64,000 nucleotides of DNA from NCBI GenBank assembly GCA_004213555.1, contig SHAP01000003.1:62001-126000 (forward strand), given 5' to 3'. This DNA is from Phycisphaeraceae bacterium. GTDB taxonomy: Bacteria; Planctomycetota; Phycisphaerae; Phycisphaerales; SM1A02. Shown here in pieces: positions 31,864-37,718 of this stretch (positions are counted from its first letter, which is position 1; the number at the start of each line of letters is the position of its first letter). Both the position numbers and the translations under genes were made by a program. The notes below the pieces were generated by a model, which was not told the DNA's origin, made no database searches, and worked only from the letters and a program-made list of their open reading frames with translations.

Positions 31864-33168
31864 TCACTCTGCAATCAAAGCATCGAGTTCTGCCGCCATA
31901 TTCTTTTCGTGGTCGGGTGAGAACCCGATGTGCACGTGGCGGATCACACCCTTCTTGTCAATGATCAAGGTGTGAGGAATAGGACCAACTTTAAAAGCTG
32001 AGGCGATGTCGTTTTTCTCGTCAAACGCCGAAGGAAGCGGACGGCCTTCGTTGGATTCAGGGAACGCCTTCGCGTACTGCTCTACTTTTTCTTTGCGGTC
32101 GGCAATGGCCACAGGCATGAACACGACGCCTTGATCGCGACGCTCAAACGTGATTCTGGACAATCCTGGCATGCCTCGTTTGCAAGGTCCACACCAAGTG
32201 GCCCAGAAGTCCATCACCACCACTTTGCCTCTGAGAGAAGCCAAGGGAACTTGGGTGCCATCGAGCATGGTCAAGGTGACCGCAGGTGCGGGCTCGCCTT
32301 CGAGAGGTCCTCCCTTTTTCTCTTCTTCTGCTTCAGGAACCACTTCTTGTGGCTCGTCCATTTCCATCATGCCGCCCATGGCTTCCGAGAAGTCGCTGAC
32401 TTTTCGTGCGCCCTCGGGGGCCACAAATGCGAAGGCGTCTTCTTTGATCTCGGCTTTGCAATCACGCATGTCCAAAGTCACAGACATTTCCATGCCTTCC
32501 ATCATGTCAGCATCTTCACCACCTTCTTCCTCGGCCATGGCCATCATGCTTTCCATGTCAGGCTTCAAGCGGAAGGGCCACTTGCCATCGCTGCTCAACC
32601 ACAAGTCGGTGGTCATGTTGGGCAGCCCAGCCTCACCTTTTTCGGTGATCTTGAGGTGCAGAACTTTGGTGTCTTCCACAGTCTCTTCACCCACAAATTC
32701 ACATGACTTCACGGTCGAGAGAACTTTCTCGATGTCCTCGGCGGTCACCATCAAGAAGTTGGAGTCCAGACCAGGGAGACCAGCGCCGCCCAAGGGATCG
32801 GACTCATCCGGCTCATTCATTTCGGCAAAAGACTTCGGTGCGTCATCCACCATGTAAGCCGACAGCATGGGGAGATAGGTGGTCATGTTCTCACCATCAC
32901 TCACCATGTCCACGCTCATCATGCCGCCGCCTTTGCCCCGCAGGGCCATCTTGTTGGGCTGCTGCATGGCGAACGAGAATTTCTGGTCCATGTTCATGGG
33001 CCCAAAGGGGCTTTCAATTTCCATGCTCAAGGCCAATTCACAGCTGAAGGCCTCCAGCTTGGATTGGTAGGTCAAAAACTCCCGAAGAAGCTTGTCGCCC
33101 CGCTCGTCTGCGTCAGCGTGGGAAATGAGGAGGGCCGACAGGCCAGAGGCAAACAGGGCGTATTTCAT
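31864..33168 (-). CDS. secreted DUF2092-thioredoxin (TlpA/ResA-like) fusion
   Basis: A 434-aa exported protein with signal peptide (MKYALFASGLSALLISHADA). Residues about 25-260 resemble DUF2092, a LolA/LppX-like half-barrel that may bind a lipid or polypeptide (MVSDGENMTTYLP). After an acidic Glu/Pro linker comes a TlpA-type thioredoxin domain from about residue 290, with the redox pair in FWATWCGPCKRG and the cis-Pro in GPIPHTLI. It probably reduces disulfides or services c-type cytochromes or lipoproteins outside the cytoplasm. GGAG lies 7 bases before the ATG. Single gene with its own terminator. Confidence 0.87.
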   Translation of the reverse strand: MKYALFASGLSALLISHADADERGDKLLREFLTYQSKLEAFSCELALSMEIESPFGPMNMDQKFSFAMQQPNKMALRGKGGGMMSVDMVSDGENMTTYLPMLSAYMVDDAPKSFAEMNEPDESDPLGGAGLPGLDSNFLMVTAEDIEKVLSTVKSCEFVGEETVEDTKVLHLKITEKGEAGLPNMTTDLWLSSDGKWPFRLKPDMESMMAMAEEEGGEDADMMEGMEMSVTLDMRDCKAEIKEDAFAFVAPEGARKVSDFSEAMGGMMEMDEPQEVVPEAEEEKKGGPLEGEPAPAVTLTMLDGTQVPLASLRGKVVVMDFWATWCGPCKRGMPGLSRITFERRDQGVVFMPVAIADRKEKVEQYAKAFPESNEGRPLPSAFDEKNDIASAFKVGPIPHTLIIDKKGVIRHVHIGFSPDHEKNMAAELDALIAE

Positions 33169-33268
33169 GGAAACTCCTTCAGCACACAAAAAATGGTGAA
33201 AATCCATGCTACCCACCTCAACCGCCTCGGGTTCACCAATACTCCACAAGTCCCGCTAGATTCATGCC

Positions 33269-33993: not shown

Positions 33994-35829
33994 TCAACCT
34001 TCCGGGCGAGATCCGGGAAAGATCCATCCGGGCTGCTCTCGAGGGACCGCGTAGACCGAGTCTCCGGCGGTGACAAAAAGCGTCCGATTCGCGGGTCCGC
34101 CAAAACAAACATTGCTTGGGCCTCCGGGCAAACCAATGCGATCGATTTCTACCCCCGCGGGATTGACCACCACAACTGACCGAAGTCGACCACTGGTCAA
34201 GTACACGTTGCCTTGCGCATCCACCGTCATGCCGTCGCCTCCACCTGGGACCTGTCCAAACGCACGGCGGTTGGCGACCACGCCCGGAGCCGTGATGTCG
34301 TATGCAAAACCGGATGAACCGCTCGATGGCAGCACATACAACGTCTCTTCGTTGGGGCTCAGCATGATGCCATTCGGTCGATTCAACTCTTCGATCACCA
34401 GAGAAATCGTACCGGTCGGACGGCGGTAGTACACCCCCATGACGGGTTGCTCTCCCGCTTTCCGGCCAAACAATGGATCGGTGAACCACAGTCCCCCAGA
34501 AGCATCAAACACCAAATCATTGGTTTTTAAAAAGCGCTGTCCTTGGTAACCGGAGATTTCCGTGCGTTCATCCACCAACGCGCCTTCTTGCCATGCGAAG
34601 CTCGCCAGCGTGCCGTGCCCAAAAAGGCATGCCCACAAGCGACCCGCACCATCAAACATCAATCCGTTCGCGACCTTCGGTGAAGACCACAACCGTTGCA
34701 GCTTCCCGGACTCGTTCAAGGAGACAATGTGGCCCGCACTTCCATCAAAGCGCATGTCTGAAAACAACAGGGTGCTCGGAGGGGACCACACGGGGCCTTC
34801 GGTGAAAAACTGACCCGAGGCCACTCGAGTCCAACTTGGGACCTCTTGACCAAAGTCGCGCCCCCCCTCCCGGTACAGCGTGTGCACGTGGTTGCCCTCG
34901 TCCTGCGCATTCACAAAATCGAATGTGAAATCCCTCCCTTCGATGCGATACGCGTTGGGACGAAAAGCCAAACCGGTCCCACTCCAACTGAAAAAAATGT
35001 CTTCGGCTTGAGCACGAGCGGAGGCCCGCCGCATCCAAGCCAATTCTGGATCCAACCGGTCGTACACGGTGTCCAAGACTTTCCATGCGGCGGCTTGTGT
35101 TGCTTCAGACAATTCTGAGAACCGAACCCCGACCCGGTCCCCCGATGTTGGACGCGGCTTGCCTACATCTGGCACCTCCCCTGGCATGGGGCCGTCCCGC
35201 TTCGCCGTCGCTCGGGTCTTCGCGTCGAGTGTGCCTAAGAAATCCAGATACGCCTGTTGGTCACCCCCGAGGGCCTGAGGCTCGCCGGCTTGATCGACAA
35301 ACGGAGAAATACCGAAAGCCATGGGCGTCACCGAAACAACCCGGCCCCCATCGATGGTCCAATTCAACGTGAGGTGGTGTCCCTCCACCCGCCACCCCCA
35401 TCGCGCATCCGACGAAGGTTGGCCGAAAATGGTGATGGCGTACCGGTCGGGTCCCAAGCGAACGCCATCACCCCGGTCTTCTCGAGGGTCAAGTCGACGA
35501 ATGTTCGCGGCGATCTTGGCCCCCGAGTCAGACAAGCCGCAATTCAGAAGCGCTTTCGCGGAGGCGAATGCCGCAACATTGTCTCGAAGATCAGCAAGTT
35601 CAAGACCATTCCGGACCCGAGGAAAGAACGTCCAGTCCATGCGAGATTTGTCATCCAATGACTTTTGCGCGGACAACCGCTGCGAATCCGACAGTGCTTG
35701 CAAGAATGAAAAAGCGTGCTGCCGCATTTCGGCCGCCACAGGGGTCATCACCACTTTTGATGTTTCAGGAACATCATCCAAGACCGAAGCGAGCCAAATC
35801 ACTGCCAAACCACAAACGCCACTGCACAT
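33994..35829 (-). CDS. secreted DUF3500 - SMP-30/gluconolactonase fusion
   Basis: A 611-aa exported protein with a signal peptide (MCSGVCGLAVIWLASVL). Residues about 30-325 match DUF3500, with YAITIFGQPSSDARWGWRVE and GHHLTLNWT. From about residue 333 a six-bladed SMP-30-type propeller follows (FFTEGPVWSPPSTLLFSD, NGLMFDGAGRLWAC, RPNGIMLSPNEETLYV, GGGDGMTVDAQGNVYL). The conserved Glu, Asn and Asp of the metal site are present. It may be a lactonase with an added binding domain. ATG at 35829 has GGAG 7 bases upstream; the ORF extension to 36192 overlaps the sigma-factor gene and is rejected. Confidence 0.82.
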   Translation of the reverse strand: MCSGVCGLAVIWLASVLDDVPETSKVVMTPVAAEMRQHAFSFLQALSDSQRLSAQKSLDDKSRMDWTFFPRVRNGLELADLRDNVAAFASAKALLNCGLSDSGAKIAANIRRLDPREDRGDGVRLGPDRYAITIFGQPSSDARWGWRVEGHHLTLNWTIDGGRVVSVTPMAFGISPFVDQAGEPQALGGDQQAYLDFLGTLDAKTRATAKRDGPMPGEVPDVGKPRPTSGDRVGVRFSELSEATQAAAWKVLDTVYDRLDPELAWMRRASARAQAEDIFFSWSGTGLAFRPNAYRIEGRDFTFDFVNAQDEGNHVHTLYREGGRDFGQEVPSWTRVASGQFFTEGPVWSPPSTLLFSDMRFDGSAGHIVSLNESGKLQRLWSSPKVANGLMFDGAGRLWACLFGHGTLASFAWQEGALVDERTEISGYQGQRFLKTNDLVFDASGGLWFTDPLFGRKAGEQPVMGVYYRRPTGTISLVIEELNRPNGIMLSPNEETLYVLPSSGSSGFAYDITAPGVVANRRAFGQVPGGGDGMTVDAQGNVYLTSGRLRSVVVVNPAGVEIDRIGLPGGPSNVCFGGPANRTLFVTAGDSVYAVPREQPGWIFPGSRPEG

Positions 35830-35879
35830 GTTCCACTCCTTGGGGATGATTTTTGGATGCCTGTCGTACGATACGGCAC

Positions 35880-36491
35880 GTGCCTGATCCCAACCGCGAC
35901 CAGGTTGATTTGGATGCCTGCGCCCGGGGTGAAAGCCAGGCGTTTGCGAATTTTGTTTCGGCCTACGGCGGCCTCGTGTGGGCGGGGGTCCGGCGGGTCC
36001 TTCGCGGGCAATCGGAGCAGGACATTGAAGATGCGGCCCAGGATGTGTTCGTACGCTTGCTGAAGGACAACGGAAGACTCCTTCGGTCTTTTGATCCCAA
36101 CCGTGCATCAATGAGCACGTGGCTGACGTTGGTCTCTCGGTCCACCGCCATCGATCGAGCTCGGAAGCTTGGCCGGACCGTAGGCCGAGCAACGGAACTC
36201 AATGATCGGACCCTCGAGGCCCCAGAGGCGCCCCTGGAGTCGGGTGATCTGGACGATTCCACCATCCCTTTGGGCGTTCTGACCGACCGGCAGCGGCTCG
36301 TCTTGCACCTTCTGTATCAAGATGAACAACCCGTCGATGTGGTGGCCCAGATGCTTCAGGTGTCCGAACAAACCGTTCGTTCCACCAAGCACAAGGCCTT
36401 GGAACGCCTGCGAGCCGCCATGCATGAATCTCAAAAGCCGGGGGATGATGCCCCTCCCAGCGACGTACAAAGGAGCGTCGACCATGGTTGA
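35880..36491 (+). CDS. ECF-type RNA polymerase sigma factor
   Basis: A sigma-70 factor of about 203 aa with region 2 (about residues 20-90: DIEDAAQDVFVRLLKD and FDPNRASMSTWLTLVSRSTAIDRAR) and region 4 (about 130-185: LTDRQRLVLHLLYQDEQPVDVVAQML, VSEQTVRSTKHKALERL). Starts are GTG at 35880 or TTG at 35853; neither has a good Shine-Dalgarno. It overlaps the next gene by 8 bases. The following two genes encode a membrane anti-sigma-like protein and a periplasmic sensor, so this is a self-contained extracytoplasmic stress module. Divergent from the DUF3500 gene. Confidence 0.9.
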   Translation: MPDPNRDQVDLDACARGESQAFANFVSAYGGLVWAGVRRVLRGQSEQDIEDAAQDVFVRLLKDNGRLLRSFDPNRASMSTWLTLVSRSTAIDRARKLGRTVGRATELNDRTLEAPEAPLESGDLDDSTIPLGVLTDRQRLVLHLLYQDEQPVDVVAQMLQVSEQTVRSTKHKALERLRAAMHESQKPGDDAPPSDVQRSVDHG

Positions 36492-36939
36492 ACACAACAA
36501 CGACATCCCGAATGCTGTGCCGATCGAAGAAGCCATGCTTTTGCTGGCCACCGCCTTGGAGGGGCGGTTGGAGGAATCCGATCGACCTCGTCTTGAGCAG
36601 GCCCTCTTGCAGCATCCAAGCCTGCGGGCCGCGGCCGCTGATGTGGCCCTCTCCCCTGCCGAGCGTTCCATTGCGGGAGCATTCCCCCAGCCCATTGGTT
36701 TGAATCGGGCCGCTCGAGAAGCCCATGCCCGCACGTCTTGGCCATCGTGGATCGCGCCAGTGCGACTGGCTGCATCGGTGGCCATCATGGCCAGCGCCGG
36801 TCTTCTGGGCTGGTCGATGGGCGCTGCCACCAGCAACAACAACGGTATTGACATCTTGGAAGCCCACTTTGGCTTCGAGCCTGTCGAATCGTCGGAAGCC
36901 TTCAGCAATGATGTGGTCTGGGAGGCGTTTGGCTCATGA
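36484..36939 (+). CDS. single-pass membrane anti-sigma-like protein
   Basis: A 151-aa protein with an acidic cytoplasmic helix region (EEAMLLLATALEGRLEESDR) typical of anti-sigma N-termini, one membrane segment (about residues 95-115) and a short outer tail. No HxxxCxxC zinc motif is present, so it is not a ZAS-type protein. AGGAG lies 8 bases before the ATG. It overlaps the sigma gene by 8 bases and the sensor gene by 4 bases. The anti-sigma role is inferred from position and topology, by analogy with CnrY in the cnrYXH system. Confidence 0.7.
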   Translation: MVEHNNDIPNAVPIEEAMLLLATALEGRLEESDRPRLEQALLQHPSLRAAAADVALSPAERSIAGAFPQPIGLNRAAREAHARTSWPSWIAPVRLAASVAIMASAGLLGWSMGAATSNNNGIDILEAHFGFEPVESSEAFSNDVVWEAFGS

Positions 36940-37718
36940 TGTCAACCCGAACCATCAACGTCATGCTGGGGCTTGCCTTGTGCGCCTCGCTGTCGTTCAA
37001 CGTCGCCTTTTTGGCCGCCCAACGCCAAGCACCACCACCCGAAGCCACCGAGGCCCGACCGACCAGCAGCCAGCAATTTGCCGCCTTGACCAACACATTG
37101 GATCTCTCTGCGGAGCAGCGTCAGGCCTGCCGAGAACTCAGCAACACTTGGAATGCCGAGCGAAAAGTCTTGGGAGAATCCATCGGTTTGCTGCGGCAAG
37201 AAGTCCGAATGTTGATGGATGGTTCACCTGTCGACCTGATTGCCCTGCGGGAGCGAACCGATCGCATCGCAGAACTGCACCACGAGCGTCGCAGAGCAGG
37301 TCTGGCCCGGATGGAAGAATTTTTGACATTGCTGACCCCCGAGCAAGCCAAGTCAATTCGCAAACTGCGACCCGAACAACTGATCCCTCCACCACCACGA
37401 GAAAGCAAGGTCCCCGAAGACGCCTGGACACGCTTCGATGCCAACCAAGACGGCAAATTGGACGAAAGTGAACGCGAAGCCGCGCTTCGCAGCATTCGCG
37501 ATCGAGCCCAATTGCGTGATTCTCGGATGCAGCAACTGCGTGAGAACTTCGACGCCAACGGTGATGGCGAACTTGACCCAGCGGAACGTCGAGCGCTTCG
37601 TGAACATCTGCACCAACACCGCGGTGGAGAGGGTCACCCCGGACCCGGACCGCGAGGGCCGCGTGGTTCACGAGGAAGAAACCCAGATCGGTTGCCCAAC
37701 CGTGGGCCCGGCGCGTAA
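36936..37718 (+). CDS. periplasmic Metal_resist-domain sensor with two EF-hands
   Basis: A 260-aa protein. Residues 7-27 form a membrane anchor or signal. Residues about 55-145 match the Metal_resist (CnrX/ZraP/CpxP-like) helical fold: LDLSAEQRQACREL at the start and LTPEQAKSIRKL at the end. Residues 168-179 (DANQDGKLDESE) and 206-217 (DANGDGELDPAE) are perfect EF-hand loops. The C-terminal 40 residues are rich in His, Gly, Pro and Arg. Encoded directly after a sigma and an anti-sigma gene (ATGA overlap), it probably senses Ca2+ or another divalent metal and releases the sigma factor. Confidence 0.85.
   Translation: MMSTRTINVMLGLALCASLSFNVAFLAAQRQAPPPEATEARPTSSQQFAALTNTLDLSAEQRQACRELSNTWNAERKVLGESIGLLRQEVRMLMDGSPVDLIALRERTDRIAELHHERRRAGLARMEEFLTLLTPEQAKSIRKLRPEQLIPPPPRESKVPEDAWTRFDANQDGKLDESEREAALRSIRDRAQLRDSRMQQLRENFDANGDGELDPAERRALREHLHQHRGGEGHPGPGPRGPRGSRGRNPDRLPNRGPGA

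Follow-up and report, generated by a model that had tools for sequence, protein, structure and literature searches.

What signal could reach an ECF sigma factor through a membrane-anchored, CnrX-like protein that carries a pair of EF-hands? The question is raised by three genes (the trio), encoding a sigma factor, an anti-sigma factor and a sensor, in a planctomycete genome (G000) that is a 2.0 Mb draft of 91% completeness; the window below is the whole 64-kb stretch of DNA that we analysed. A sequence-only reading of the window had placed three tightly overlapping genes at 35880-37718, and these coordinates proved correct, with overlaps of 8 nt between the sigma and anti-sigma genes and of 4 nt between the anti-sigma and sensor genes (Table 1). 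Overall, what that reading observed was confirmed; its interpretation is supported in part.

Table 1. Features of the trio, its predicted promoters and predicted target genes (positions in the window unless a locus is named).
Feature	Position	Strand	Basis or remark
ECF sigma gene	35880..36491	+	203 aa, GTG start; Sigma70_r2/r4, TIGR02937 above cut-off
Anti-sigma gene	36484..36939	+	151 aa; orthologue alignment, hydropathy
Sensor gene	36936..37718	+	260 aa; Pfam, orthologue alignment, PDB profile, hydropathy
EF-hand loop 1, residues 168-179, DANQDGKLDESE	37437..37472	+	Sequence; ligand positions intact in 32/32
EF-hand loop 2, residues 206-217, DANGDGELDPAE	37551..37586	+	Sequence; ligand positions intact in 32/32
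Predicted ECF promoter of sigma gene, GGGAT-N17-CGTA	35843..35868	+	About 12 nt before GTG; conserved in G001
Second promoter copy in sigma 3' end, predicted to drive anti-sigma and sensor genes as feedback	36442..36467	+	16 nt before anti-sigma start
Inverse overlapping copy, GGGAT-N16-CGTA, towards divergent DUF3500/SGL gene	35867..35891	-	Also in G001
Divergent gene, secreted DUF3500 + SMP-30/gluconolactonase-like	33994..35829	-	PF12006 174.9 bits, PF08450 130.9 bits
BIG, example	L032:2671-4437	-	
Secreted AhpC/TSA (redoxin) with EF-hands, divergent from trio	L023:664-1794, L027:8242-9210, L084:4739-5908		

The first gene encodes an ECF sigma factor, as had been proposed: both Sigma70 regions exceed their Pfam cut-offs (Sigma70_r2, 45 bits; Sigma70_r4, 44 bits), as does TIGR02937 (74.6 bits, cut-off 42.9), and the protein of about 200 aa combines PF04542 and PF04545 with no region 3. 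Identity to eight orthologues ranges from 37 to 95%, and a TTG at about 35910 offers an alternative start. The second gene product has one hydrophobic segment by hydropathy, at about residues 90-110, and is predicted to span the membrane once, leaving a periplasmic tail of about 40 aa in which Phe129, invariant across the alignment, is a candidate contact to the sensor. When searched alone against Pfam, the window protein gave no match, and the zinc ligands are absent. It nevertheless resembles class I anti-sigma factors (zf-HC2 ASDI, such as RsiW and ChrR) through its orthologues, of which 6 of 10 match zf-HC2 and several retain HxxxCxxC (those of L025, L027, L028, L029, L084-L087 and L034); it differs from them in that the motif has been lost in the window and its genus. 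Because of these orthologues, the N-terminal domain is best read as derived from zf-HC2, of class I type and without zinc ligands in the window member, and the zinc site appears to have been lost repeatedly, in several lines. A mixture of zinc and zinc-free members is normal in class I groups (PMC7406223), while CnrY belongs to class II (PMC7406223). Hence the earlier description of a one-helix anti-sigma factor without a zinc motif is correct for the window and its genus, but the CnrY-like, zinc-free type that it implied does not fit a protein of apparent zf-HC2 class I origin.

Conservation of the trio as a unit had been named as a check, and it bore the proposal out. In a first search of 41 genomes, full-length sensors were found in the window's genus and in other genera of its family, and the DNA at these loci reads sigma, anti-sigma, sensor. 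By a family-wide profile search, 37 of 181 genomes and 14 of 45 genera have the sensor; two of these genomes lack an in-frame EF part, G012 because it is EF-less and G429 because the gene is split between contig ends. The same order recurs at 34 loci outside the window's own genome, where an EF-hand sensor gene stands beside an anti-sigma gene and, wherever the contig reaches, a sigma gene; in most of them a 4-nt overlap links the anti-sigma gene to the sensor gene, a sign of coupled translation. Beyond the family the combination thins out. Full-length EF-fused matches in a class-level search of 298 genomes lay solely in the window's own family (G000, G010, G022 and G165), and in 294 genomes of the phylum only the window's genome gave a match spanning both parts, the rest being EF-hands alone or the sensor domain alone. 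A scan of genome contigs returned mostly unrelated EF-hand proteins and a single match to the same module (L051, which is locus L101). Trios that lack EF-hands were found in G012 of the same family and in G029, G044, G062 (where the contig stops before the sigma gene) and G648. Because such trios occur in other planctomycete families, the EF pair looks like a local gain: the EF-less trio is the more widespread form, and the pair was probably gained in or near the window's family. A sigma tree did not separate a single gain of the EF-hands from loss in some lines.

The regions around the sigma start share the two-part motif GGGA(T/C)-N16-18-CGTA, and a closely related pattern is present in 28 of 35 upstream regions (shuffled mean 1.95, maximum 6). 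Since the motif was derived from these regions, later counts describe its placement and are not independent discoveries; the junction between the sigma and anti-sigma genes took no part in the derivation and is the cleaner test. There, the motif points into the anti-sigma gene at 34 of 37 trio loci, which are kin from about 14 genera and not independent, and thus places a predicted two-part promoter before the operon's own genes. It also faces the divergent neighbor in 28 of the 37 loci and the sigma gene in 7, and only five other sites were counted across all 37 loci (312 kb, both strands). The whole 64 kb of the window contains three matches, all inside the trio module. In the window's genus, divergent promoter copies overlap at window positions 35826-35891. 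The sigma GTG lies about 12 nt past the predicted -10 (CGTACG; window 35865-35880), and the sigma mRNA may therefore be leaderless.

Most trio loci share one neighbor, usually divergent, which we call BIG: a secreted, helical protein of 500-750 aa, most copies of which end in a Gly-rich tail and contain one or two EF-hand loops. Pfam finds nothing in BIG beyond EF-hand, and we dropped the idea of BIG as a proven CpxP-like protein for that reason; we likewise rejected it as a marker exclusive to trio genomes, since 177 of the family's 181 genomes have it and most of these lack the trio. Its upstream region nonetheless follows the trio: 24 of 29 trio-associated copies are preceded by the motif, against 0 of 20 copies in genomes that lack the trio. 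Within the window's genus BIG lies apart from the trio (own-genome copy G000:C7:185670-187364), and the motif precedes unlinked copies in the window's genome, G001, G017 and G024; it was not found upstream of the unlinked copy of a further trio genome, G368. We also sought a wider regulon in the window's own genome, but as only the trio and BIG sites among 12 GGGATG-N15-17-CGTA sites recur in G001, we claim no further targets. In L023, L027 and L084-L086, the divergent gene encodes an AhpC/TSA-EF-hand fusion or resembles one; in L027 and L084-L086 the motif lies upstream of it. The DUF3500/SMP-30 gene, whose likely ATG at 35829 directly follows an AAGGAG, neighbors the trio only in the window's genus, other trio loci having other divergent genes; it is a possible target of the leftward motif copy. 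Further left, inspection by eye of the product of 31864-33249 (minus strand) suggests a long secreted N-terminal part resembling LolA/DUF2092, followed by a thioredoxin/TlpA-like C-terminal domain (WATWCGPC). Together, the motif placements support a model in which sigma factors of this group read the motif, feed back on anti-sigma and sensor, and drive BIG, with the pairing of this particular sigma factor and promoter put forward as a prediction; BIG thereby gains its first function guess. The predicted targets that encode EF-hand proteins would also support a wider calcium theme. We are highly confident in the module and its regulation.

The sensor itself is organized as a predicted transmembrane segment (about residues 7-28), a Metal_resist/LTXXQ domain (about 44-142), the EF-hand pair (about 160-220) and a Gly/Arg/Pro-rich tail. 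Alone, the window protein passes the cut-off of LTXXQ (PF07813; 27.4 bits, cut-off 24.3) and falls just under that of Metal_resist (PF13801; 25.6 bits, cut-off 29.2); among 32 orthologous sensors searched at E ≤ 0.01, Metal_resist is matched by 32 (strongest match 1.1e-13), EF-hand_1 by 31 and LTXXQ by 29. A profile of the N-terminal part matches VirG-like (1.4e-7), CpxP (0.0044), Spy, ZraP, NccX (0.2) and CnrX (0.58) entries in the PDB, and the domain can thus be assigned by profile to the CpxP/Spy/CnrX superfamily, with weaker support towards its CnrX end. The CnrX/ZraP-like domain that had been proposed fits these matches, and the possibility, raised at the time, that the domain lies outside the Metal_resist/LTXXQ group is answered in the negative by both Pfam and the PDB profile. 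A predicted structure was set aside as evidence (AlphaFold on a two-sequence alignment, mean pLDDT 55.7; top Foldseek matches NccX and CnrX, best E 0.4, not significant). Outside the genus, sensors share 24-35% identity with the window protein, and 14 columns are invariant. Five of these lie in the membrane segment (L11, S18, F21, N22 and F25), which suggests a working anchor with a specific membrane partner, and not a cleaved signal peptide. The His-rich tail that had been singled out is not conserved, the tails of relatives being rich in Gly, Pro and Arg.

Another five invariant columns belong to the EF-hands (D168, G173, E179, D206 and E217). The two canonical loops are placed exactly where the sequence-only reading had put them, at residues 168-179 and 206-217, and their fusion to the sensor is real and strongly conserved across the 32 aligned orthologues. 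Both are 12-residue loops with ligands at positions 1, 3, 5 and 12, kept in 32 of 32 sensors, and with Gly at position 6 (32/32 and 31/32 in the two loops). The twelve EF loop positions average 0.36 bits of column entropy, whereas the sensor domain averages 2.11 bits. We therefore predict that this calmodulin-like pair binds calcium.

Our working model is as follows. The single-pass anti-sigma factor would keep the sigma factor at the inner membrane, and its short periplasmic tail would contact the anchored CnrX-like protein bearing the Ca2+-binding EF pair. Altered Ca2+ occupancy, most likely Ca2+ loss, or a client competing for the sensor would change the sensor/anti-sigma complex and free the sigma factor. 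Free sigma would then use GGGA(T/C)-N16-18-CGTA to produce more anti-sigma factor and sensor, as feedback, together with secreted EF-hand proteins, mainly BIG and, in some species, the AhpC/TSA-EF-hand fusion. On balance we lean slightly towards this autoregulated envelope-signaling module being gated by Ca2+ occupancy of its EF-hand sensor. That Ca2+ is the actual signal, rather than Mn2+, envelope stress or a structural Ca site, is to our minds evenly poised. More tentative, and somewhat short of even, is the fuller proposal of a dedicated, encoded Ca2+ route in which the anchored EF-hand sensor directly gates the anti-sigma/ECF sigma pair and the regulon consists of secreted Ca2+-binding proteins; if true, this route would serve these Planctomycetes in Ca2+ homeostasis or as a Ca2+-dependent circuit of the cell surface. 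The Ca2+ switch is plausible because of the CnrX/CnrY/CnrH mechanism (PMC7689651) and the Caulobacter CaBP-SigV circuit (PMC13171946). That BIG occurs chiefly in genomes lacking the trio weighs against the model.

The main rival is a sensor of envelope protein stress, similar to CpxP or Spy, whose EF-hands are constitutively Ca-loaded and either structural or docking BIG. The best profile relatives of the sensor domain, VirG-like, CpxP and Spy, point in this direction. The EF-less trios L034, L040 and L170 keep the same promoter motif, and by that token the core switch does not need the EF-hands. Seawater contains about 10 mM Ca2+, so that the EF-hands could be permanently loaded and purely structural. 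In addition, BIG weakly resembles the sensor profile and has an EF loop and a Gly-rich tail, and Dockerin_1 is among the weak Pfam matches of the orthologous sensors. On the other hand, perfect ligands in both loops of all 32 sensors exceed what a dispensable structural role would need, although structural Ca sites can match such conservation; we consider protein-stress sensing unlikely, yet a serious contender.

Gating by Ca2+ is also to be weighed against a transition-metal sensor (Ni/Co, Zn or Mn) of the CnrYXH kind, in which the EF-hands would be incidental or bind Mn2+. Metal_resist in every orthologous sensor and a gene content like that of CnrYXH agree with such a role, but across the sensor domain, the alignment of 32 sensors has no column in which a His, Cys or Met is conserved. 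In CnrX, Met123 is conserved and needed for Ni/Co signaling (PMC7689651), and a Ni/Co role for the present sensor is hence unlikely. Moreover, the ORF lists, in which the neighbors are partly annotated, show no efflux pump gene next to the trio, and the predicted targets are EF-hand proteins; the transition-metal reading as a whole strikes us as improbable. A last rival would have the EF-hands be acidic sequence that arose by chance or from low complexity and binds nothing. It might be argued from EF-hand Pfam models that score just below their curated cut-offs on the window protein alone, but is hardly credible: although overall identity is only about 30%, each of the 32 orthologues has both loops with their ligands fixed, and 31 match EF-hand_1, so that the orthologue set already contradicts it.

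Among known systems, CpxP, Spy and ZraP are soluble proteins that act as chaperones or alongside two-component systems; the window sensor belongs by profile to their superfamily (LTXXQ PF07813, PDB profile matches) but is anchored, lies in an ECF operon and bears EF-hands. The CnrYXH and NccYXH systems of Cupriavidus come closer in anatomy, with a linked ECF sigma factor, a single-pass anti-sigma factor and an N-terminally anchored periplasmic protein of Metal_resist type, and NccX and CnrX are weak PDB matches of the window-sensor profile. Here, however, the gene order is different (sigma, anti-sigma, sensor), the anti-sigma factor is of zf-HC2 class I type versus class II for CnrY (PMC7406223), the Ni/Co ligands of CnrX, including Met123, are not conserved, an EF-hand pair is added, and the predicted targets are secreted EF-hand proteins instead of an efflux pump. 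By anti-sigma class and metal ligands, the trio would thus fall outside the CnrYXH group despite its similar anatomy. In Caulobacter vibrioides, the CaBP-SigV circuit is switched on by Ca limitation and by acid (PMC13171946, 2026), and there, too, a periplasmic EF-hand protein is functionally linked with an ECF sigma factor. CaBP (133 aa) has EF-hands and a Sec signal but is not described as having a Metal_resist domain, and the membrane component linking it to SigV is not yet named (PMC13171946); the anchored window sensor, in contrast, combines its EF-hands with a CnrX/CpxP-type domain and is encoded together with a membrane anti-sigma factor. The open-licence literature that we searched yielded neither a report of a Metal_resist domain fused to EF-hands in an ECF operon nor a paper on an EF-hand/CpxP combination; new here are the motif GGGA(T/C)-N16-18-CGTA and its link to the trio and BIG. 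Little is understood, to our knowledge, of how bacteria sense extracellular Ca2+ and relay it to transcription. Here, four genes and a single reporter make that question directly testable: where CaBP-SigV lacks its membrane component, the trio encodes sensor, anti-sigma factor and sigma factor together, with a predicted promoter and predicted targets, and is a good candidate for a calcium-sensing circuit built into the bacteria of an uncultured planctomycete lineage.
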